This document shows, piece by piece, positions 16,013 through 56,800 of a stretch of DNA of 64,000 nucleotides. The stretch lies in contig CACVBU010001038.1 of NCBI GenBank assembly GCA_902728285.1, forward strand, positions 162,293 to 226,292, in the 5' to 3' direction. Numbering within the stretch: the stretch's first letter is position 1; the number at the start of each line of letters is the position of its first letter. The position numbers and the translations under genes are program-made. Under the pieces are notes generated by a model. The model was not told where the DNA came from and did not search any database. It saw only the letters and a program-made list of their open reading frames with translations. The stretch is from Clytia hemisphaerica (Eukaryota > Cnidaria > Hydrozoa > Leptothecata > Clytiidae).

Positions 16013-17501
16013 GGCAGTGACACAATCACTATACGCTCATATCATAACTCCACATAAAGATCTTGAAGATCTTTTTAAGTGTTTGTTCCTCGTGTCAAAG
16101 TTTGTTTGTTCATTCGTCTACAAATTTCGCTAACTGAAGATGATCCAGCAAAGTAACTTTTATTTTCTTTGGAGCTAACGTAAAAATTTTCCCATGGATT
16201 AAGTGTCGTCGACGGAAAACATGTTTCTGGTCTTTCAAAACAATTTCAAAAAAGGAAAATCAGTATGGAAAAGTTTGCAAAATTTCATCCATTTAACCCT
16301 GTCCAGTCTACAGGCTGCCCACGCAAAGCCTCGTTTTCACAAGAAACTCGTCTCCGGACCCCAAATATAAATATTTTTAAAAAACTGGATGTTTAGATTT
16401 GCAGATATTCACTAACGCAGCAAATATGCGAAATTTCAGTCAAATCAGACCATTTTTTAAGTCTACAGTATGCCCTAAAGTTTCAGCCTCGTTTTGACGA
16501 AGAACTCGTCCCCAGACCCCAAAAATCCAAACTTTCAAAAAATGGCAAATTATATCTGTAGATATTCACCCAAGGGCCAAGTGTGCAACGTTTCAGCAAA
16601 ATCTGACCATTGTTGAGGTCTGCAAGCCGCCCCTAAGTTTCAGCCTCGTTTTGACGAAAAACTCGTCCCCAGACCCCAAAAATCAAAATTTTCAAAAAAT
16701 GAAAACTTAGATCTGCAGATATTCACCCAAGGGCCAAGTGTGCAAAATTTCAGCCAAATCAGACAATTTTTGAAGTCTACAGACTCATTCGGAGTTTTTC
16801 AGTTGACATTCGATGTTTTATCGATGATTTTATCGATTTTAGCCGTTTTTCCTACATTTTCATCGCTTGAATTAATTATTAGTGTAATATTTTGATGGCT
16901 TTTAGTATTTACAAGCAAAATGCATCATAAAAGTGAAAACTCATGACCTAGAAACTGTTAAGTTCATGAAAATCGATTAAAATCGATTAACTCGATAAAA
17001 GTCAACTTTTAAGTCGATTTTCTCGACACTTGCACTAGAAAATCGCGGAAACTTTTCGATTTTGTAATCTACACATACTAATTCGCGAGTTTCCACCAAA
17101 AAAAGTTAGATCTAAGAGATGTATCACGAAACGAAACAATTTTCGACCTCAGCAGCGGGACTAATACTACCATTGATCGAACATTATAACTTGGCTGTTG
17201 TTCCGGCTGTTTGTCCTTGTTCATTTGCATCTTCAGATTTTGTAATTTTTAAAAATTTTCCAAAATGAATCCGCCATTTTGGAATATTTTACTTTTTTCA
17301 CTTTCGTTTTTAAAACCTAAAACGCCGATTATCCCGATTTCAAATCAGATCCGATAAATACCGAATCGGAACATGTTTGTTATTGTTATCGCTTTCGTTT
17401 TCGATTTCGGTGACTAATTTTATTTTTCGAGTATTTTTTTACGATTCTTTGCTGTTGATTTTTGGTTTTCATTTGCTTGTAATTGTTGTAAAACCCTTAA
17501 T

Positions 17502-19980: not shown

Positions 19981-20962
19981 ATGCGAACCAGAAGTAGAGC
20001 ATTAAGTAAGTATAAAACTTATGTTGAAGATGTTGAAAATATTCTAATGTTAATGCATGCCGGATACATAATAGTATAGTTTATCATCTTCCACCATAAA
20101 ACTAAACAAAGTTTTTTGTTATTGTTAATCTTTAGGACGGCGCGGACGATCTCCAGGTAGTAGGTTACGATCTTTATCACGAAGACGTAGTCCCCTGTCT
20201 CGTAAACAACGATCCCGCTCACGTAACCAACGCTCAATCTCACGACAACGTGCTCGTTCACAAAACCCGAGAGCAGTGTCCCGAAAACGTTCGACATCTC
20301 GAAAACGATCGGGATCGAATCGTCGACGTAGAACTTATGGAAGAAAGAGTTCACCGAGTATTGCACGACGACGATCACCATCGGCACGCAAAAGTCGTTC
20401 GGTAAAACGGAAACGTTCTCGTTCTGCCAAACGAAGCCAGTCGGCGGCTGTTGTTAATAAGCAAACAAACCAAGAAACGAAAAAGTTGGTTCAAACTTTA
20501 ACGAAAAGTCAATCAACAGCTTCTACAAAAAAATTGAACTCCCGGAAAAGATCAGGATCCCGAAAGAGGTCAGCCTCGAGAAAAAGGTCCGCTTCTCGAA
20601 AAAGTCTTGTGTCGGCAAAAACATCGACCCCCACCACCGACGTTCCCCAAGAAACATACTGCACACTGAAAAGATCGGTTTCCAAAAAGCGACGTGCTAG
20701 ACGACAAAAGTCTGCTACACCGACACGAAAACGATCAGCCTCGGCAAAACGAAAACGTTCTACCTCCCGTAAGATATCTTCTTCCCGAAAACGATCAACA
20801 TCGGCAAAACGAAAAAGGTCGGCTAGCCGAAGACGGTCGGCACGACAAAGAAAAGCAGCAGATAAACAAAACCAACCAAAAACTCGTTCTATCACTTTCG
20901 GAGAAACCACGAAAGCTGAAACTACTGTTGGAGAGTTCGAGCTTATCGATTTGTCAGATTGA
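19981..20962 (+). CDS. Arg/Lys/Ser-rich basic nuclear-type protein, 2 exons
   Basis: Exon 1 is 19981-20005 (MRTRSRAL plus one base, then GTAAGT) and exon 2 is 20136-20962 (acceptor …ATCTTTAG), 283 residues in all. More than 200 residues consist of R/K-R-S tri- and tetrapeptides: a SPGSRLRSLSRRRSP opening, many SRKRS, SAKRKRS and ASRKRS repeats, and SP/TP sites. The C-terminus changes sharply to a non-basic end (TFGETTKAETTVGEFELIDLSD, here abbreviated by its positions 262-283). This composition fits a sperm nuclear basic protein or protamine-like chromatin protein, or an RS-domain splicing factor without an RRM; the lack of any RNA-binding domain favours a DNA-packing role. Serine-rich repeats suggest phospho-control. 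Polyadenylation signals AATAAA are at 20998 and 21014. The family is inferred from composition only. Confidence 0.7.
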
Positions 20963-21868: not shown

Positions 21869-24800
21869 TCAATAAAATTCTGTACCCTCAGAACCATAAA
21901 TATCTGTAGCCTCTGTACCATAAATTTCTGTAGCCTCCGTACCATATGATTCTGTGCCATATGATTCTGTAGCATCAGTACCATATGATTCTGTTGATCC
22001 GTCAGATACCCATGACCATGTAGCTTCACCTCCTGTTTCTGTTGTTCCTCGGGTTGTTCGTGGACGATTCGTTGCAGGTCTTCGGGTTGTTCGTGGCGCT
22101 GGTCGTGCTGTTGTTCGTGGCGCTGGTCGTGCTGTTGTTCGGCCACCGGCAGAATTACCTAATGGTTATCGTTTTCAAAAATGAAATACTGTCAACTCTC
22201 TTATTCGAGTCTCTCCTATTCAAATCTTTTTGTAATTCGAACTAAAATATTGATCCCTCAGGTTGAAATTAGTGTAAAACAGTCTTTGTAATTTGAATCT
22301 TTCTCTATTTCGAAGACAATTCTTGGCCACTTAAAGATCGATTTAGAGAGGGATGATAAAGAATACTTTCGGAAAAAATGAGGGAGAAAAGTCGGAGATT
22401 ATAACACATTTGTTGAAGTACAGAATGAAACATGGGTATTCCATATCAATATGAATAGATTTGACAAACTTTTGAAAGATAACACCCCTGTGTCACAGAC
22501 GTGTTGAAACCCTGGCCCCAATGGGAAATTGACTTTGATTTCAACCCCATCCAAAACCCAATATAAAAAATTGCACTCTTAACACATCCCCACTGGATTT
22601 TTCGACTTAGAAGAATAATAGAATTTTTATCACCATTGGGATTTCGATTGAAAGTTTCATCGGGGATCGGGGCCTATTAGACAAACTTTTTGAAAGATAC
22701 TTACATTTGAAGTAAGCTCTAACTTTTCAAAGATTTCTAAAATTTTATCTTCGCTGTGGGAAAGTTTCATTGGGGTGGGGTCCCAGCGGGTCTGTGACAC
22801 AGGGGTGTTAGATACTTACAGTTGAAATAAGCTCTAACTTCTTGTAAATCCTCTGCAGATAAATCGGGAACGTCTCCAAGGATTCGTAAGTCCTGCGCCG
22901 TTAACTTTGCACTCTGAGCATTTTTCAAGATCGTCATGGTGTTTTGACCATTTTTAGAGAATGATGACAAAGAGTATTGCATAACACTCATGTAATCATA
23001 TGGCTGTAATGTATAGCAAAAAAAATGAGGCATTTATATGTTTTTTTAATAAGCATAAATTCGAAAACAGGCTCGAAGATGCTTAGGTCGAGGGCTTGAC
23101 AAGGCTAAAAACAGCTTATAAGGATGCTAATATCACAAGCAAAATTTTAGGGAAATTCCGAAGATCCGTAAAATCTCAGCCAAAAACAGCAAAAATCTGG
23201 AAAATACATTTATTCGTAGGCTTAAGGTGATGCTTAAATTAGACTTAAATTTTTACCATATCTGAGCCTAGACATGCTTACACAAGTGCAATGCTTATAA
23301 AAAACATGTATAGTGCTTATTATTGGATTATGTTGAGGAGCAAGGCTACGCTAGTTCGTTCACCAAAAGCGATAAGACATTAGTTAATATTTAGAGTTTA
23401 GTCAGTAGTCTATATTCATCCACCGAGCTGCATTGCCAGTTCTGAATAGGACAAAACACGTGTCAGCAGATGGACATAATAAGTGCTACTACACACTACT
23501 ATAGGTGATATATGATAATTAGCAGATATTCAATGGGTAAAAGTTGGTTATTGAGATTTATTAACCCGAGGTGATGTAATATTCAACAGGCGAAGCCGAG
23601 TTAAATATACATCACCGAGGGTTAATAAATCCAATAACCAACGAAAACCTATTGAATATATGTTTTATTATATACCCAGAGGCAAAAATAAAACATTAAT
23701 TATGTCAATAGCTAAACGTTTCACTTTTAAAACACTCCCATTGGCTGCGTTTAGACCAGCCTGGCATTTGTAATTGCTTGCAGTATTCTTTTGAATTCTA
23801 TTTTTCCGCGCAATTGTTCGGTTTGTCAAACGCCTAATGATGCCAGCGTGTTGGCATTTCGTTGACATTTGAAATGCCATTTTGAGCAAAGGAATCCCCT
23901 TTTCTGGCATTTCAAATCAAACAAAGGAACCAAAACAAAGAGAAAAAATGACATTTTTGATTTTTTAAAGTATTTGCACGTTTTTTATTCAGTTCTTTCT
24001 ATAGATTGTAAAATTTGCAAGATTTGCCATAGCCTAGCCCTACGGCAAAAAGTTTCAGTCTTAATGACTGCAGTTTTTGAGAAATTCCATGCTTTTCATT
24101 GTTTGATCTGTCAAAGTTGAACTTGAGGGAATCACCTTTTCAGTAATGACTCTAAAAAGACGATTCCTTAAATGCAATGACAGAAAATACAATGGAAAAG
24201 CTATTAAAATCGAATCCCTCATGAGCAAATGCAAAATTACAAATGCCAGTTTGTCTAAACGCAGCCATAATCGAACGTTCGAATGTTTTTCTTTCTTAAT
24301 GATTTTCTTAATTACTTTAAGTCATAAAATTTGTTTATGAAATTGACAATAGATTTATTTTAATGAATTTCTTTGATAACAACAAGAGCAACAAAAAAAC
24401 TCAAACTTTGAAAGCAAAATTTGAAAAAAAATTCTACCGTGGTATAATAGCCATGGTATATCAGGAATTATTCAATGGCTGTTTTTGCCTACAGGTATAT
24501 AATAATGTGAAATGTTCCTTAACATAACCCGGATTTATTTTAAATTTAATTGTATAAAATGTATAATATCTGCTTATGACTTGCCGATTTTCGCCTTTTG
24601 AGAAAAACTTTTCCAGTCCCAAAAATGAATTAAAATAACACTAGTCAAAGAGATGAAATGAGATGAACTCATGCTCAGTTGATTCGCTAAACAGTCGATA
24701 TGAAGATATGAAATTTTTAAAGTTTAAGATTTGCGAAGTGAAATCCAATCAAAGAATTTGAGTTAACCGTAGAACAATAAGAAAGAGAACTCTTACCACG

Positions 24801-36308: not shown

Positions 36309-36314
36309 TTTATT
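36309..36314 (-). terminator. Possible polyadenylation signal of the BH3-like gene
   Basis: AATAAA on the minus strand, 215 nt after the stop codon at 36529. It is the first clear signal downstream. Confidence 0.45.
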
Positions 36315-36528: not shown

Positions 36529-37220
36529 TCACCAAAACTGGTACCAACTTTTCGCATTGTATTTCTCCATCATGTCATCACCAATTTGGCAAAGCTTTAA
36601 AGCTATTTCTTCAAAGAGCACTTCGTCATTCTCAAAGTCAAAACTCAGCAGGTTGAAACCATCACTCGAAGGTCGACAAATTTGGAGTTCCTGTGATGTG
36701 GACTGGCACGATTTTTTTCTGATGGGTTCGTCTAGAAAATGACACTTTCTCTTCTTTTCTTCGCTCACCTCCTTATCAGAACTTGTGTCAGAGGAACAAA
36801 CTCTGGGTGCAAAAATTGCTAAAAACACAAGAGGCCATGGTAGCACGAATTTAGCAAATGGCAGTAAACACTTGACCAATTTTCCACGAACACACTGAAC
36901 CTCCAGTATGATTGATTTACCTGAAGACAAAGAAATGAATATATTACTTGACCATGAACTTATCATATGACCGGAAAAGTACCATGCCATAAAGGCTAAG
37001 GATTTCGCGAGTTTGAAGCTCGGGCTTTGAAATCAATGTCCGCCTTTGGCTAGCCTATCATATTTTTACAGAGTGCACTGAGAGTCTCCAAAAAAAAGCA
37101 TAAAAACTATTTAAAAATGATTAACTTACAAAATAAGCTTGCTTCTTTCCAGCTCTCGATTTTAGCTGAGCCAGATTGTGAAAGAATCCCATTTAATAAA
37201 TAGACTAAGAAGTCAGCCAT
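36529..37220 (-). CDS. BH3-only-like protein, 2 exons
   Basis: Exon 1 is 37130-37220 and exon 2 is 36529-36920 (donor T|GTAAGT, acceptor TTGTCTTCAG|GT, phase 1), 160 residues. Near the C-terminus residues 136-148 read IALKLCQIGDDMM. This fits the BH3 pattern of a hydrophobic residue, three residues, Leu (140), two residues, a hydrophobic (Ile143), Gly144-Asp145 and an acidic residue; it resembles the BIM-type core IxxxLRRIGDE. No BH1 or BH2 motif is present, so the protein would be a BH3-only death activator or sensitiser binding BCL-2-like proteins at mitochondria. A hydrophobic stretch at about 48-69 (LLPFAKFVLPWPLVFLAIFAP) could be a membrane segment, placed before the BH3 rather than at the C-terminal tail. 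The middle (70-120) is Ser-rich and polar, with basic pairs. The ATG context (AAGATGG) is good and a TATA box lies about 95 nt upstream. The main doubt is that a short motif can match by chance. Confidence 0.6.
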
Positions 37221-37311
37221 CTTAAGCAAGATGTTTTGGAATATTTGTGTTCAACACCGTATTAAGTTTCCTGTAGAAGATGACTGACAAAGCCAAGCAG
37301 TACGAGATTCA

Positions 37312-37320
37312 CTTTATATA
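37312..37320 (-). promoter_or_regulatory. TATA box of the BH3-like gene
   Basis: TATATAAAG on the minus strand, about 92-100 nt upstream of the ATG at 37220, leaving room for a 5' leader of about 60-70 nt. It is the only strong TATA match near this start. Confidence 0.55.
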
Positions 37321-40533: not shown

Positions 40534-42975
40534 TCAGACTTTATTATATTTAACGTTATCTAAACGTTGCTTTGTGATAGCTTCTTTAGTGTTTAACTGA
40601 GGTCTGAAAATCACAATGAACAGTTTATAACCATACAACAACACAAAATGTGTCGTGTTATAAATAGTTGTCACGAGTAGAACAATAAAGCTCCGATAAA
40701 CCATTGACTTCTGTGAGAAATAAGTTGCCGTGGCTGCAACGAAAACTACCGTTGATATAAAAGACGAATAAATGACATGGTTGGTTTCTTGAAAACGTGA
40801 CGGTAATTTCCGTGCACGGAAGCCTTGGATACCGTTGCACAAAGAAAGAACGGCTGCTATGAGAAGTTGAATATAAATCATGGTGTCGTTGCTGCAGTAG
40901 AATTCTTTGGTCAAAGTTTGGTCAAAATATTGAAGATCCACGGTGACTTCTTTGTTGATTACAGACAAGAGATGTAGCAAGGAGTTGATGATTAAAGCCA
41001 CTAGTATGATAATCCACTGCGAAGCTTTAGTCATCAGAATTTCAGTATTTGACATTCGAACTTTACTGTTTACGATCATGTAGAGTTTTTGAGATTTCGA
41101 TATGTTGATGGATAGTGTTATACTGAACAATATACCAAGGCAGATCTGGCGAAGCAAACATATTGACGGTGACGTCATTAGGAAGAGGATACTCGGTAGA
41201 ACGAATAATAACAGATGGCTGAGTAACTGGATACTGGTCATCGTGCGGTTAGCTAATTTAACGATAGGTGTTTCTCGCTTGACAAAGAAAACGACCATTG
41301 TCACTAAAGTTGTTAATGTCATCAGACACGAAGGACCAAAAACAAAATTGATAGCTAGGTCGTCAACTTTCAGCTTTTCTTCTGTGAATGGATCATAGCA
41401 TTCCGTACCTTTTTTATTGACGGTATTTGGATAAAAACATTCCGTGCAATTCTGGTTATTCCCAGGTTGTGATTTGAAGAATCGTTCTGGACATTCCTGG
41501 CAATTCCAGCCATAACTTTGTGTCCAGTAATCCTCTTTATAAAACGAATGAACAAGTTGTTGTCCAGCATCACAAAACGGCTTTTTCTCGTTGCAATAAG
41601 GTCGAGCTTTGAGAGCTTTGGTAGGATTAAACGACCATTGATCTAAAAGCTTTTCTTCACTGACATTTTCGATGTAATAAGTTTTTTTCCAAAAGTCCAT
41701 AAGAAGTAAAGTAGCATCTTCATGAGCCATAAGCGACTCCAATGCCTTTTCGAGCTTTCCAAAAGACTGTAGAAATTTTAACATATCAATTGTAATAGTG
41801 GAATTAAAACTTTCAAAGTACTCTTCTTTAAATTTTCTCTTTAAAAGTTTTTGAGCGTTTTCGTTTTTTAGTAGTCGCGTCCAGATAGTTTTGATTTTAT
41901 TTTCGCTCTTCACCTCTTTTAGTAATTCAGTTGGTAAATCGAAAGCAAAAAATAGAAAACCATTCACAGCTAGATATCCTTGGAAATTTGTCAACACATC
42001 TCCATCATCGTACTCAATATCCAAAGGATCGACTTCCGTTACAACATACTTCAAATCCTTTAATTGGGTCAAAAATGGCAAATAAAAAATATCACCCATT
42101 TTCTCACTATGTGCATTAACAGTACGTTGGAAAGTTGAAATCGAGCGACTGTCACCAGCTTCAAATATAAAAGATTGATTGACCGATTTCGCCAACTCCA
42201 TAACTTGGTTAACTTCAGTTTCATTGGATACATCAATGCTAATCTCTTTGTAACAATCAGTAGGGTTTAAGTTGATATAAATACACATCGCCGAAGCCAC
42301 AGGGTTTGTTTTACAAAGTTCCTCTGTTGAAACAGTTGTAATGCGTTCCCCAGAACCGAGATTGAAGAAAGCACTATAAGTCACGTTTAACTTTTTCTTG
42401 ATCTTGTTAAATTCTTGATGCATTTGGACGCCAAAGCCAGCTTCGAAACTGTATATTGCACGGGGATCTTCGATATAAGCTGCTGGATACATGGGACGAT
42501 CAGTTATACTAATAAGCATGATTAAATCTTGTGGCAGAAGTAGAGCACTTAAAAGCCTGGTCAAATCAAAGGATAAATAAGTCAGAATTAAAAGTCGTTT
42601 CTTAGAAATGTCCAGATCCCATGAGCCGTTTCGATTTTCACATTTAACTTGGTAGGTATCTCTCTCATCTGTGGTAAGCGGGAAAACGGTATTGACAAGC
42701 GTCCTGGTGTTATTTCCAATATCCTTAAAACATAGTTGAACGTCAAACCAGAATTGCTGGTGTTGATGAACTAGTAGCATTGTTTCTTGATTAATCTTTG
42801 CATTATGACAATCGAATTCATTCTCCTTGGTACAATTCGTTGTGGTAAATAGACCAAGAAATTGAAGTCCTAGTTTTCCATCAATAACACCAAAGCTCAT
42901 GTAAAAACAAAGCAGTATCAATATAACTGTATTAGACATCTTGAATGTGATAGAGTTGAGAACAAATATCAGCAA
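40534..42975 (-). CDS. Single-exon class C (family 3) G-protein-coupled receptor
   Basis: The uninterrupted frame has 813 residues. A signal peptide follows Met13 (MSNTVILILLCFYMSFGVIDG), so translation may start at 42939 rather than at 42975. Residues about 35-455 form the extracellular ligand-binding region, diverged from the usual Venus-flytrap sequence. Residues 461-526 are a cysteine-rich linker (Cys461, 468, 492, 495, 510, 513, 526) of the NCD3G type seen in metabotropic glutamate, calcium-sensing and vomeronasal/taste receptors. Seven helices follow at about 544-566, 580-601, 607-628, 652-672, 699-717, 734-755 and 761-785. After helix 1, TPIVKLANR matches the class C TPxVKxxNR motif, and helix 7 ends in YKLFIVIFRP, matching the YxxxFRP end. 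The ligand is unknown. The cytosolic tail is short. An AATAAA is embedded in the last codons (AAT AAA GTC TGA), an unusually tight 3' end. Confidence 0.75.
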   Translation of the reverse strand: MLIFVLNSITFKMSNTVILILLCFYMSFGVIDGKLGLQFLGLFTTTNCTKENEFDCHNAKINQETMLLVHQHQQFWFDVQLCFKDIGNNTRTLVNTVFPLTTDERDTYQVKCENRNGSWDLDISKKRLLILTYLSFDLTRLLSALLLPQDLIMLISITDRPMYPAAYIEDPRAIYSFEAGFGVQMHQEFNKIKKKLNVTYSAFFNLGSGERITTVSTEELCKTNPVASAMCIYINLNPTDCYKEISIDVSNETEVNQVMELAKSVNQSFIFEAGDSRSISTFQRTVNAHSEKMGDIFYLPFLTQLKDLKYVVTEVDPLDIEYDDGDVLTNFQGYLAVNGFLFFAFDLPTELLKEVKSENKIKTIWTRLLKNENAQKLLKRKFKEEYFESFNSTITIDMLKFLQSFGKLEKALESLMAHEDATLLLMDFWKKTYYIENVSEEKLLDQWSFNPTKALKARPYCNEKKPFCDAGQQLVHSFYKEDYWTQSYGWNCQECPERFFKSQPGNNQNCTECFYPNTVNKKGTECYDPFTEEKLKVDDLAINFVFGPSCLMTLTTLVTMVVFFVKRETPIVKLANRTMTSIQLLSHLLLFVLPSILFLMTSPSICLLRQICLGILFSITLSINISKSQKLYMIVNSKVRMSNTEILMTKASQWIIILVALIINSLLHLLSVINKEVTVDLQYFDQTLTKEFYCSNDTMIYIQLLIAAVLSLCNGIQGFRARKLPSRFQETNHVIYSSFISTVVFVAATATYFSQKSMVYRSFIVLLVTTIYNTTHFVLLYGYKLFIVIFRPQLNTKEAITKQRLDNVKYNKV

Positions 42976-44319
42976 ACGAATGTTTTACAGTGAGTTCTCG
43001 ACGATGAATTCTTGTTTTTGTTCCCTTTGTGGTATCAGGGGAAATGTTCTGTTGTCCTTTGATGCTAACGTTCTACTCCTCCATTCAATTCCCTCTGCTT
43101 CAAACTTTTATTTAAGTTTCTTGTTCAAACAAAATACAACAGACAAAATCGAAATCGAAAAAGTTTCTTTAACTATATACTCAGAATTGGCGAAATATCT
43201 TCCTCTTCACTCGAGTCTTCTTGATTGACTGACTGATATAAGATTCTTCGCTTCCTTTATCAACAACAAAAAAAACGTCCAACTTGTAGAATAAATTTTG
43301 AATTTCTGGGAAAAATAAAAAGACATATTTACTCATTCTCTTTGAATGAATATACTTAAATGCAATTATTGGGATTCACCTTTTTGTATTTTTTAATTGT
43401 TATCGGTATCTTTTATGACGTGTGTTCAATCAATCATACTTAATATTGGCAGACAGACAGATCTCTGACGATCGAAATTGTTGTTAAGTCGATGATTACA
43501 GTCTCATAATGACTACAAACCAGGATGAACGTGCTTCAGAACACGAAGAGCATAGTTTGATAAACACAATGCAAGGGTTGTAAAGGTTCTTCATTTTATT
43601 AATTACACTGACTTCTTTGTGATGTCTTACTTAACCAAAACATCCCCGTGTCACAGACCCATTTGGATACCCCCTCCTACTCACTGAATGTAGAATCTTT
43701 TGGACCCAATAACTCCTTAAACCGACGACTGTGTTATCAGACCGCTGCAAAGTCAGGAGCGAGACAATTCCGGGATCTTTCCGCTGTTTTTCTGAGCATA
43801 CCAAAAAAGTGTGTGGACAACATCCTACGGGACTGACCTATAAAAAACTGAAGTTACATCTTTATCTACCCAGAGTCTAAGTCTTTCTCCGATGTAAAGT
43901 GTCAATAGGAAAGTTTTCCAGGAATGAGAAAGTTTAGTCATCATTATATGGTACAAACCCCAAAAGAAAGAAAATAAAAAATCTATTAGTCAGAAAATCG
44001 AAAGGAAACAAACCCATCATTCAAATAATAAACAATAGAAATTCATTGGAATTGGTCATCTTTTCTTGGAATTAGTGTGAAAAGTTCCAGACAGCAATCT
44101 TAGCAACAATTTCCTAAAGAATAATGTCAAACTGCTAAACTTGATTATATATGGTGAAGATCAGAGATCTGACCTCAAGGAGAGCAAGTGTTGAAAATAC
44201 TAAATAAAATAAAGATGAAACATAAAAAGAGACTAATAATTTTATAATTATACGTTTTTTCTTTCTATTTTTTGAATTTTTCTAAATATATAAATCAAAC
44301 ATTCTGTCAAGAAATGAGA

Positions 44320-46983: not shown

Positions 46984-48168
46984 TCAAACTGTATAATTTT
47001 CACCTTTTGTTGGCGAATGTCTTTCATCATCACCACTATTTATCGCCTCCTCATCACGATACTCTTTCGTCGAATCCTCAACGCCTCCGTGTGAAGTGCT
47101 TTTGAGATCGGCAGCAGAGCTAGTACTATAACCAGAACGACTGACAGTGTTGGTGCGACTTATAGTGGTCGAAGAATCCAAGAATTGGCGATAATTATCA
47201 CATCGGAACCACTCAGCAAACATAGTATACATCTCCTTCCGAAACATTTGACCAGATAAGCAATACAGTATAAAATTGATTGAAGAATTAAGGACTAGGG
47301 CAACTCTAGCTGGAGCATAAGCTGTACTGATATGATACCAAGCATCCTTGTCGTCGCTTTTGAATTGCAGCATGTAGAAACACTGAACAAGACATTGCCA
47401 CATGAGACAAAGCAGAAATGAAAAAGAAATGGTTAGAAGTATGACTGTTGTTTGGTGTTCTTTACTGCTTTTCCCTTTGGTCCTCACTGGACGGCGTTGG
47501 TAAAGTTTTCTGATGATCAACAAGTTCAATACGAAAATGAGAATCCATGGCACCAGAACGAGGACGATACAATGTCCCCAAAAATCATACATAACAGCGC
47601 TAAAGGACTTTCCATATTCAGTTTCAACGATGTTCCAAGTGTTTTGAACATTCCGCACAGGTCGATAATTAAAAAAGTGAGGAATATTAGTTAAAAACGC
47701 CAGAATGATTGTAGTGAAAATAATGATATAGCTTTTTCTGACTGTGTTCATGGATGCTGCTCGATGCGGTAGAACCACGGCAATAAATCGATTATAGGTA
47801 ATCGAAACGACCAGCCAAACGCTTGCCAATATGAAGAAAAAGTACACTGGGAATCCAATATAACAAAAGAACCAGACATAAACATAGCTGTTTTGAGCAT
47901 CAGTCGAAATATTCTGAAATCCTTCGGTCGCAGTGAAAAAGATTAATAATCCTGTATCAACGAAAGCCAAAGCGATCAAAAACATTCCAGCGCTTTTACT
48001 AGAATCGTGTCTCTGTCTATTGATTCGCTTCCATACCAAGATCGAGATGAGGTTACCAAGGAAACCAAGACAACAAAGTGTGATTCCGATATAAGCACTC
48101 ATAACAACGTGTAACCCGGTATTCCCGTCCGGTATATCCGATTCGGGTATCTGCTTGAACATATACAT
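46984..48168 (-). CDS. Class A GPCR, FMRFamide-receptor-like, single exon
   Basis: The frame has 394 residues and no intron. Helices: about 24-46 (GFLGNLISILVW, the GN motif), 57-78 (LIALAFVDTGLL, Asp71 in the usual LAxxD place), 98-123 with Cys102 at its top, 147-165, 199-219, 240-263 and 287-306. The DRY position reads TYNRF (Arg127 kept, Asp replaced by Tyr-Asn). The NPxxY region is NSSINFILY, a form common in FMRFamide and related neuropeptide receptors. Helix 6 has CLMWQC in place of CWxP. The C-terminal tail (about 320-394) is Ser/Thr-rich and acidic, suiting arrestin and kinase regulation. The start MYMFKQIPES gives a short N-terminus without a signal peptide, normal for this class. 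The ligand is likely a neuropeptide; this is inferred from family resemblance. Confidence 0.8.
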   Translation of the reverse strand: MYMFKQIPESDIPDGNTGLHVVMSAYIGITLCCLGFLGNLISILVWKRINRQRHDSSKSAGMFLIALAFVDTGLLIFFTATEGFQNISTDAQNSYVYVWFFCYIGFPVYFFFILASVWLVVSITYNRFIAVVLPHRAASMNTVRKSYIIIFTTIILAFLTNIPHFFNYRPVRNVQNTWNIVETEYGKSFSAVMYDFWGHCIVLVLVPWILIFVLNLLIIRKLYQRRPVRTKGKSSKEHQTTVILLTISFSFLLCLMWQCLVQCFYMLQFKSDDKDAWYHISTAYAPARVALVLNSSINFILYCLSGQMFRKEMYTMFAEWFRCDNYRQFLDSSTTISRTNTVSRSGYSTSSAADLKSTSHGGVEDSTKEYRDEEAINSGDDERHSPTKGENYTV

Positions 48169-48719
48169 TTTTTGTTTCTTTGTTTTGTTTAAATTTTCTA
48201 TAATTATAATAGGAAGTCGGAAGTGATTTGAAGAAATAATTAGGTATCCCTAAAGTACGATATTGCAAAATTAAAAAACCCATAATTACTTCAAAACTGT
48301 ATCATAAAAATATTCTAATAAATCGTAAAAACTCTTCTTACTTCGAATCTCTTATAAAAATATCTTACGTGACAAGCCTGGCAAAAACTGGAGTTTCGAA
48401 TACATATTACAACATATCGAGTCATATTTCTAATCTGAATATACATGTTTGAAATATAGAGCATTTGCTAATACCCGATCTGTTGACCCAGCAAAACCAG
48501 GGAAATTATCTATCTTAGAAGGGAAAACTTATTCGGCTAAAATTTAAGGCGGAAAAAATTCGTCACTTTCTTGAAAACCTTTGACACAGCTTCCTTCAAA
48601 TTGACCGGGAAGGTTTCGTCACTTTTCCCCGACTAGTTATTAAACGCGCCGCTTTCAAGTTAAAAAATCAAAACTTGCCTTTTTCGTGAGACCACCTTTA
48701 TTCCGACAAAGGTAAAAGA

Positions 48720-53854: not shown

Positions 53855-56800
53855 TCAGATTTTTAGGACGTCCAGCAAATCAAGATTATCAACAGCACCC
53901 ATCAAACTGCCATTGTTATTCGATCCTTCCTTATCCACTACGTATTCTTGGTGTGGAGAAGAAGTAGCGATAGGTGGTGGACGTAGGGCACGTAGCGCAC
54001 GCATCGCATGATTATGGATGTCCTCGTTCGGATGAGTAGAGAGCTTGATCAGGTTATCGTGAAGTTTTTGGTTGACAAACTAAAAGAAAAAACGTTCAAA
54101 GTGGGAAGATTATGATCCATACCATTGAGTTTCAACCCCGAAGGGCTAGAGGCGAAACTTTAACCCTTCTCAGGCAAGAGAAGTTGAAGCCACTGATTTT
54201 CCATCCAAAACGCGCATAGAACGCGCCGTAATAATGACGACGGATTGTATCTAACGGTTGCTTTGTTTTAGAGGACTACATTTTTTGAAATCTAGCGATA
54301 GATTTTAGTTTCAATCCGGCGTTTGTGTAAAAACTACGCACAGGCGTTCTGGATGGGAAATAAGTAGTTTCATTTTCCATGTTAACAAGCAATCTCCAGG
54401 AAAGCAAGGAGATTTTCAAACATTTTTCAGTGCATAGTTGATGCGGCGAAGGTGTGTTACTTCAACGAATCTAGCTCCTTGACCGGATCGGGCTTCCCAT
54501 ATAAAAAAGAAAGTGTTTCGAGTTTTAGAGCTAACTATTCCCCATCTTGTTTTCAATTCTGTTCGTCAACAGCGTGTTTCGAATGTTTTGAAATTCAAAC
54601 GTTCGAAAATCTTACCAAGGTAAAATAGAAAACAACATCCCGGACTAGTCGACTTTAAAACTTGATACACTTTCCCGGAAAATCCGTTAGCAGTTAGTAT
54701 GTAAATAAATGATATATGTGGTTACTTCGGATGGTGAGATGTGAGGTAAAGTATCATGTTTCCATCTTGAATGAATAGCTTCTAAAACATTTGCACAACA
54801 ACACACTGCACGAAGTAAATATCGTTCTTCTTCGCCGATTGTAAGAAAGCATTCAACTGATCGAATCATCTAAAAAATAATGAATAGTTTTCACAAAGAA
54901 TCCTCATCGAAGGCACCCATTAGTATATAAGCGCAGTGCAAACTCCAATATTGTTCCGGCTACATATTTTTCAGTTTCCAGTTTCATTAAAAAATTTTTC
55001 AACTTCGAGTATTTTTATACAAGGCAAATGTTTTAGAAACCACTGGCATAGGCTTTTCCAGAAAGTATGGTACACAACACAGCCGATTTTATTTTGAGAA
55101 CAAATAGCTTTGGTGGCCAAAATATTTAGAACAAGTTTAGAACAAGTCAAAAACATTTTCAGGATTAATTAAAATTAAGAAAATCTGAAGGCTATGAAAA
55201 TTTTGGACGTTCTTATAAAAAAAGTTTAGTACTGAATCAATTAGGGAGTCGGGCAAGTTAAAAGTTTATTCTATCAGCCTCTCTTCCATTTCTCTACTAT
55301 ACAAATTATACATACCATTGCTGCCAATTCGAAATCATTTTCACAATTTCGCTTGTTCGTGGAGATGTTAACAAAGATTTTCAAGACTTGAAGCTACGAA
55401 GAGTAATAAAGAATTAATTCAGCAGGAAAAATTTTACGAAGTAGTGTCATATGGGATGGTTACTTGAATTATTTGCAGGTAATTCCAGGCTATTTTCAGG
55501 TCTGTTCAGGTTCCTAAAAAGCTTTTAATTAACCCAATAATTAGTTTTTTTTAAAAGAGATCAAGAGCAAGATTCTTTTGTCTGGGAGGAAAAATGGATT
55601 TAACACATAATTTGGTAAATTATGCAGAATTTTGAGACGGAAGACCTCTCTAAAAACTTCGCTGCGACGGAAATCCGTCTGATACGGAAGAAGTTTTGAC
55701 ACTTATTCAAACCCTCTCTTAGATTGTGAAAATTTTGCTTTTTATTTTTAAGACCCTTTTAAGAATCTTTTTTGCATTAGATACCTGAAAAAACAAATTT
55801 AATAAAACACAAAATTCACCTTCACTTGAACAATTTCACATTGCGTCAGTAACTCACAAAAAACAATCATTTTTGGGAGCAATGTCGAATGACTTTCGTC
55901 CAATGCAGTCAGATTGGTCAAAGCACACAACACAGCAGTGAAAAGTTTAATAGTTTCATCTTTGATGACATTTTTGCATAAAATTTGAATAAGTTGCGGT
56001 ATACTGTCCTGAAGAAAGAAAGCAAAAATATGAACATCAATAGACGTTTTTATAAATTACGTTACGAACATCACTTGCTTCGTTTTGAAATGATCGCCAT
56101 GGTGATTAACTCCCAGAGGATTTTATTAAAACTGCTTCCTATTCATAAAAAATCATTTTAATGTCTAAAAAGACATAATCACCATGATAATTGTTTGAAT
56201 ACGAGGCAAGTGATGTTCGTGACGAAATTTATGAAAAGGTCTATCTAGCTGGGAATTTAAAAACCCATTCTTCTAATATGCAGAATTCTCTTGCATATAC
56301 AGCATAGGGTAGATTGAGTAAAGTTCAATGAATTAGAAATGTAACAGATTATGCTGAACTCCAACGATTTTACATTGGTCGGAGGAATGATGTTCACTGA
56401 TTATAGATCATTAGTCACAAATACAAATGATTCATTTTCACCATGAAATGAATATATGATACCATACCACCGAGTAAAAACGAAAGAAAAGAGACAACTA
56501 GACGATGATCGACAGGGGAACAAAAACATCTTTAAATTAATAAATGTTACAAATGGAAAAGAATAAATATCAAAGCAAACCTTTAGTACAGTTTGATTTT
56601 GAACATTCATTGCCAAGTTATTAATCAACAAAGCAACTTGGCATTGGACATCCAAATCAGGGTACTTGATGACTTGAATAATCTTGGGTAAGTATCCAAG
56701 GCTACGAATCTTCTCCTGAAACATATGAAGGATGAGGTTTCACCATGATGCTGCTTCTTCTGGCTACTTGCAGCCCAAAGACAAGATTTTGAGTGCTCTG

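Follow-up and report, generated by a model that had tools for sequence, protein, structure and literature searches.

The candidate gene and its neighbours in the window

The window, i.e. the whole stretch of 64,000 nucleotides that was analyzed, carries on its minus strand a predicted two-exon gene that would begin with an ATG at position 37220 in a good start context (AAGATGG). A TATA box (TATATAAAG; 37312–37320), also present in the other haplotype, lies 100 bases upstream of this ATG, and reading of the sequence places an Inr-like TCAGTC between them, with its A at 37285. The coding part of exon 1 (37130–37220) would specify residues 1–30 and the first base of codon 31, and ends at 37130 in the donor TTTT/GTAAGT. 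The predicted GT-AG intron of 209 bases (36921–37129, phase 1) has a pyrimidine-rich tract before its acceptor and closes with TTTCATTTCTTTGTCTTCAG; exon 2 (36529–36920) starts at 36920 directly after TTTGTCTTCAG and completes codon 31 through codon 160 and the stop, giving a spliced frame of 160 codons. A candidate polyadenylation signal (AATAAA, 36309–36314) follows approximately 215 bases 3' of the stop. The TATA box, the two exons, the 160-residue product and a BH3-like segment near its C-terminus had all been put forward in a preliminary description of this DNA, and the minus-strand sequence bears them out.

Other features were recognized in the window. Two single-frame GPCR genes lie on the minus strand: one of class C (7tm_3; 40534–42984, approximately 800 residues), whose extracellular part matches poorly and which differs between haplotypes by 32 synonymous and 25 nonsynonymous codons, and one of the rhodopsin family (46984–48249; 7tm_1, E 3.2e-19) that we read as neuropeptide-receptor-like. 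A plus-strand frame at 17418–17741 matches UPF0239 (E 7.4e-14), and a minus-strand segment at 56401–56739 (Arm_2, E 7.8e-5) is probably an exon from a gene for an Armadillo-repeat protein. On the plus strand, a frame of 277 codons (20129–20962) is rich in Ser-Arg repeats and has no Pfam match. Scanning the window for Rfam families and tRNAs returned nothing.

The gene occurs three times in the assembly (417 Mb in 951 contigs), on contigs C716, C111 and C436, and no paralogue was found up to an E value of 10 among the candidates scored in the genome. C111 and C436 are 99.97% identical across 3,207 bases and are collinear, piecewise, with approximately 16 kb of the window, and thus look like allelic copies. 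The frame is intact in the window and in C436 by direct reading, and in C111 by virtue of its identity to C436. Between the window and C436 the coding sequence differs by four substitutions (one in exon 1, three in exon 2), all of them nonsynonymous, and the BH3 segment is identical. The predicted intron carries one substitution and no indels, the 110 bases upstream carry no substitution, and the flanks diverge by 1.7 to 3.7%. The four allelic changes are uninformative, as they neither prove nor exclude constraint.

We scored coding potential with a codon model for which Bcl-2 exons, the two GPCRs and the UPF0239 exon served as training set. The candidate scored below 22 of 24 known coding pieces, and 19% of 171 non-coding open frames did at least as well as it; in another codon test the candidate frame came 25th of 48. 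As proof of coding, codon usage is therefore marginal in two tests, and the case for a real gene is carried by its signals and its integrity. These results bear on the alternative that there is no gene here, and that a 167-codon open frame in AT-rich DNA happens to be flanked by accidental promoter and splice signals. Such frames are common enough, since the window has 48 of at least 90 codons (the candidate and the GPCR genes among them), and both the marginal codon score and the lack of a synonymous excess between alleles would fit this explanation. However, the expected signals follow one another in the proper order (TATA box, good start context, GTAAGT donor, pyrimidine-rich acceptor, AATAAA), the 692 bases of the gene are free of indels between window and C436 whereas 29 gapped bases fall in the 1.5 kb directly upstream, and first-position GC (0.45) lies at the coding mean (non-coding 0.38, s.d. 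0.07). We consider an accidental frame distinctly improbable.

The predicted protein and its BH3-like helix

The predicted protein has a hydrophobic stretch in its N-terminal half (residues 48–68, CLLPFAKFVLPWPLVFLAIFA; 36808–36870), a possible membrane segment on the Kyte-Doolittle scale, with the strongest 19-mer at residues 49–67 (mean 1.95). Residues 73–130 are polar and charged. The BH3-like helix (residues 132–151, LFEEIALKLCQIGDDMMEKY; 36559–36618), located by matrix, pattern and profile scoring and contained entirely in exon 2, begins after a gap of 63 residues from the end of the hydrophobic stretch. Along the protein, the helical hydrophobic moment peaks at the 18-mer of residues 133–150, and an AF2 model of exon 2 from the single sequence placed its longest helix at residues 131–150, over the BH3; the mean pLDDT was 39.9, a low confidence which, in a model made without an alignment, is no proof of disorder around the BH3.

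The protein would end nine residues after Y151, and no hydrophobic anchor of the BIK or HRK type follows the BH3. The preliminary description was thus right about the position of the hydrophobic segment and the missing tail anchor, and miscounted the residues that follow NAK, which are six (SWYQFW) rather than eight. Lack of an anchor is not in itself unusual, since EGL-1 and BAD also have none. The layout, with the hydrophobic stretch ahead of the BH3 and no anchor behind it, is real in the protein as predicted. Confinement of the BH3 to one exon is also stated for three echinoderm sequences in a published survey (PMC8998228).

All the canonical BH3 positions are filled, as had been claimed from the sequence at first sight. 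Within residues 136–148 (IALKLCQIGDDMM) the four hydrophobic positions are I136, L140, I143 and M147, the acid is D145, and G144 directly precedes it. Positions for additional contacts, of which the preliminary description made no use, are filled too, namely L132/F133 (HP0) and Y151 (HP4+4), HP0 being placed by the HP1 numbering of BID. According to one account, a BH3 has four hydrophobic hotspots and one acidic residue, usually with a Gly preceding the acid; further contacts are made by HP0, ahead of HP1 in BID, and by HP4+4, which is Met74 of BAX with Tyr163 of BIM as its counterpart (PMC9171138).

Over 15 motif residues, the candidate shares 8 with the BH3 of L005, one of the genome's own Bcl-2 genes, 7 each with human BID and BIK, 6 with BIM, and 4 each with PUMA and HRK. 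Nevertheless, the BH3 is described as a degenerate short linear motif of poor predictive value (PMC9171138), and the protein could be a real small protein, probably membrane-associated as its hydrophobic stretch suggests, whose C-terminal amphipathic helix only happens to look like a BH3 and has no affinity for Bcl-2 proteins. That HP0 and HP4+4 fit as well, and that more than half of the motif is shared with L005, argue against such a coincidence.

In order to place the motif against chance, we built a simple scoring matrix from 13 human BH3 segments and scanned the window in six frames. The candidate ranked first with 16.4 bits, a value reached in 3 of 200 Markov windows. It exceeded 4 of the 13 human segments when each was left out (range 9.6–31.9), and 5 of 7 BH3 segments chosen by eye from Bcl-2 genes of this genome. 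The runner-up was an unrelated minus-strand frame at 22901 (14.4); the frame starting at 23033 obtains 6.6 bits in the profile described below. A strict pattern, composed only after the motif was known, occurs once in the window against 0.015 expected per 64 kb (200 simulated windows).

The BH3 profile search that the preliminary description had proposed was carried out with 13 sequences (10 human and 3 same-genome BH3s, candidate excluded), and in six frames it placed the candidate frame at the top of the window (12.6 bits, E 0.0086; next frame 6.6 bits), with 1 of 150 order-3 Markov windows above it. Run against the PDB, the profile recovered, among the matches listed, BH3 peptides named BIM, PUMA, BAK, NOXA, BAX, BMF, BID, HRK and BAD. 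The motif is thus about a 1-in-100 event per window, above chance here yet not rare across 417 Mb, where tens of accidental motifs of such quality would be expected. Since comparable motifs arise by chance at this rate, the motif alone is no proof of a BH3-only gene. If the small protein is real and has no further domains, a BH3-only identity would be favoured, because a proteome holds few small domain-free proteins.

Family searches and the Bcl-2 genes of the genome

The sole Pfam match of the whole protein is to BID (PF06393), over residues 96–152, at 14.3 bits and E 0.031. With the C-terminal 89 residues the match reached 16.4 bits (E 0.0071), and with the last 33 residues E 0.12; all three lie under the cut-off of 25 bits, and orthology to BID was rejected on this score. 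A match of E 0.031 is not strong alone, since E values below 0.1 were obtained for 4 of 10 other frames of the window, of which one was real (UPF0239) and three were chance only. A second control came from two genuine Bcl-2 genes found elsewhere in this genome: the BH3 segment of L005 matched NOXA at E 0.16 and L006 matched Bclx_interact at E 0.064, and the BID match of the candidate is no weaker than these. That no other Pfam domain appears in the protein also speaks against a chance resemblance to a BH3, an alternative that we regard as unlikely.

Further searches gave negative results. The candidate protein matched none of the Pfam families of BIM, BIK, HRK and PUMA and nothing in NCBIfam; in the PDB, phmmer found no relative of the whole protein and, for the last 33 residues, one unrelated chain (E 1.5). 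A genome-wide BID search had zero matches, the candidate gene included, and a genome-wide search with PF08945, the BIM BH3 family, did not return the candidate gene. Two weak PF08945 matches elsewhere in the genome (L035 and L036) were rejected, as both lack the BH3 Gly-Asp. Bacterial or archaeal and viral contigs held 77 and 8 pattern-matching stretches, respectively, none of which was upheld by tblastn, as expected for an animal gene.

A search of the genome with the Bcl-2 family (PF00452) yielded 18 places, 13 of them over the Pfam cut-off, and some of the 18 may be haplotype copies. The nearest PDB molecule to L006 is 'Bcl-2-like 4' (6wgz, E 5.8e-52; also 6wh0), which we take to be a Hydra protein, and the next molecule follows at 1.8e-24. 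Two adjacent Bcl-2 genes, L009 and L011, lie approximately 2 kb apart on the same strand of contig C224, and we read the BH3 of L009 as Bak-like. In L005 (1474–1500) the Bcl-2 frame opens directly at the BH3 (REIAKVLQRIGDDM), and an intron may therefore precede the BH3 immediately. One divergent Bcl-2-like gene is found on four contigs (L017, L018, L019 and L020) with a near-identical Bcl-2 part and differing ends, reflecting either recent spread or assembly copies.

None of the PF00452 matches is listed on the contig of the candidate gene, and Pfam, which lists BID only, gives no indication of BH1, BH2, BH4 or a Bcl-2 fold in the protein. The identity with L005 would be accounted for by a multi-domain Bcl-2 gene that has degenerated or been truncated down to its BH3, or by a short splice form of such a gene, but this family search and the 130 residues upstream of the BH3, which match no Bcl-2 family in Pfam, make such an origin most improbable.

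In the 14.5-kb mitochondrial contig, TGA codes for an amino acid, and a partial COX1 sits at one of the two ends. By our reading of its frames, the order is cox2, atp6, cox3, nad2, nad5, then nad6, nad3, nad4L, nad1, nad4, cob and cox1, which is consistent with the fragments of gene order that PMC4655093 gives for a hydroidolinan. On the strength of this order and of the nearest PDB molecule to L006, we place the animal in Hydroidolina.

A candidate BH3-only protein of a hydrozoan

Judged from its sequence, the gene probably encodes a BH3-only protein that lacks a tail anchor, from a frame with a single predicted intron. We prefer the BH3-only reading because the motif positions are filled, the sole Pfam match is to a BH3 family (BID, below its cut-off), the genome has many Bcl-2 genes of which none is listed on this contig, and the BH3s of two proven Bcl-2 genes in it give no stronger Pfam BH3 hits. 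The BH3-only assignment of the preliminary description is supported in part and stands as the preferred one. We consider it fairly likely that the candidate belongs, as a BH3-only protein, to the Bcl-2 network of this hydroidolinan hydrozoan.

The mammalian BH3-only proteins BIM, BIK, HRK and PUMA have a C-terminal membrane segment. The candidate shares with them an amphipathic BH3 of the form hxxxLxxh(G/A)D(D/E)h, but their membrane segment follows the BH3, whereas the hydrophobic stretch of the candidate ends ahead of it. BID has IAxxLxQxGDxM in common with the candidate and is a folded helical protein, whereas no confident fold was predicted for the candidate. EGL-1 of C. elegans resembles the candidate as predicted in being short and BH3-only and in lacking a tail anchor. 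In the survey cited above, BID is reported as absent before sharks and rays (PMC8998228).

A table in PMC10192318 names HyBH3-only 1–4 of Hydra vulgaris, which are likewise hydrozoan and BH3-only and come from an animal with many Bcl-2 proteins. BH3-only candidates are reported in further cnidarians as well (PMC8998228). A figure legend in that survey (its Figure 5) gives cnidarian BH3-only genes as being without introns, a survey statement rather than a definition, whereas our candidate has a predicted intron. Among the matches listed in a thin literature search of titles and abstract openings, none described a BH3-only protein with an N-terminal transmembrane layout. BH3-only proteins are thus already known in Hydra, and the candidate is probably a further member with an unusually placed hydrophobic segment. 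A bolder proposal is that it represents a cnidarian BH3-only lineage of reverse topology, distinct from the intronless genes, with an anchor in the N-terminal half, a C-terminal BH3 on a tether of approximately 63 residues, and an intron-bearing, TATA-driven gene; we hold this to be tentative and on the whole doubtful.

If the BH3-only reading is correct, and if the gene is transcribed, a protein without a recognizable folded domain would present its C-terminal amphipathic helix to the groove of the Bcl-2 proteins of this animal, the mechanism reported for Hydra (PMC8998228). I136, L140, I143 and M147 would occupy the four hydrophobic pockets and D145 would meet the groove arginine, with L132/F133 and Y151 as additional contacts. 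Docking may free or activate Bak/Bax-like proteins and so lead to mitochondrial permeabilization and apoptosis. Residues 48–68 may tether the protein to a membrane, in which case the BH3 would face the cytosol.

Cnidarian Bcl-2 families are large, and their BH3-only triggers are poorly mapped because these share little sequence. An Acropora study calls the characterization of BH3-only proteins particularly important and likely to be challenging (PMC4715348). With a concrete candidate gene and its likely partners available from one genome, the triggering of hydrozoan apoptosis becomes accessible to experiment; if the layout is real, the candidate would represent another way of holding a BH3 at the membrane.
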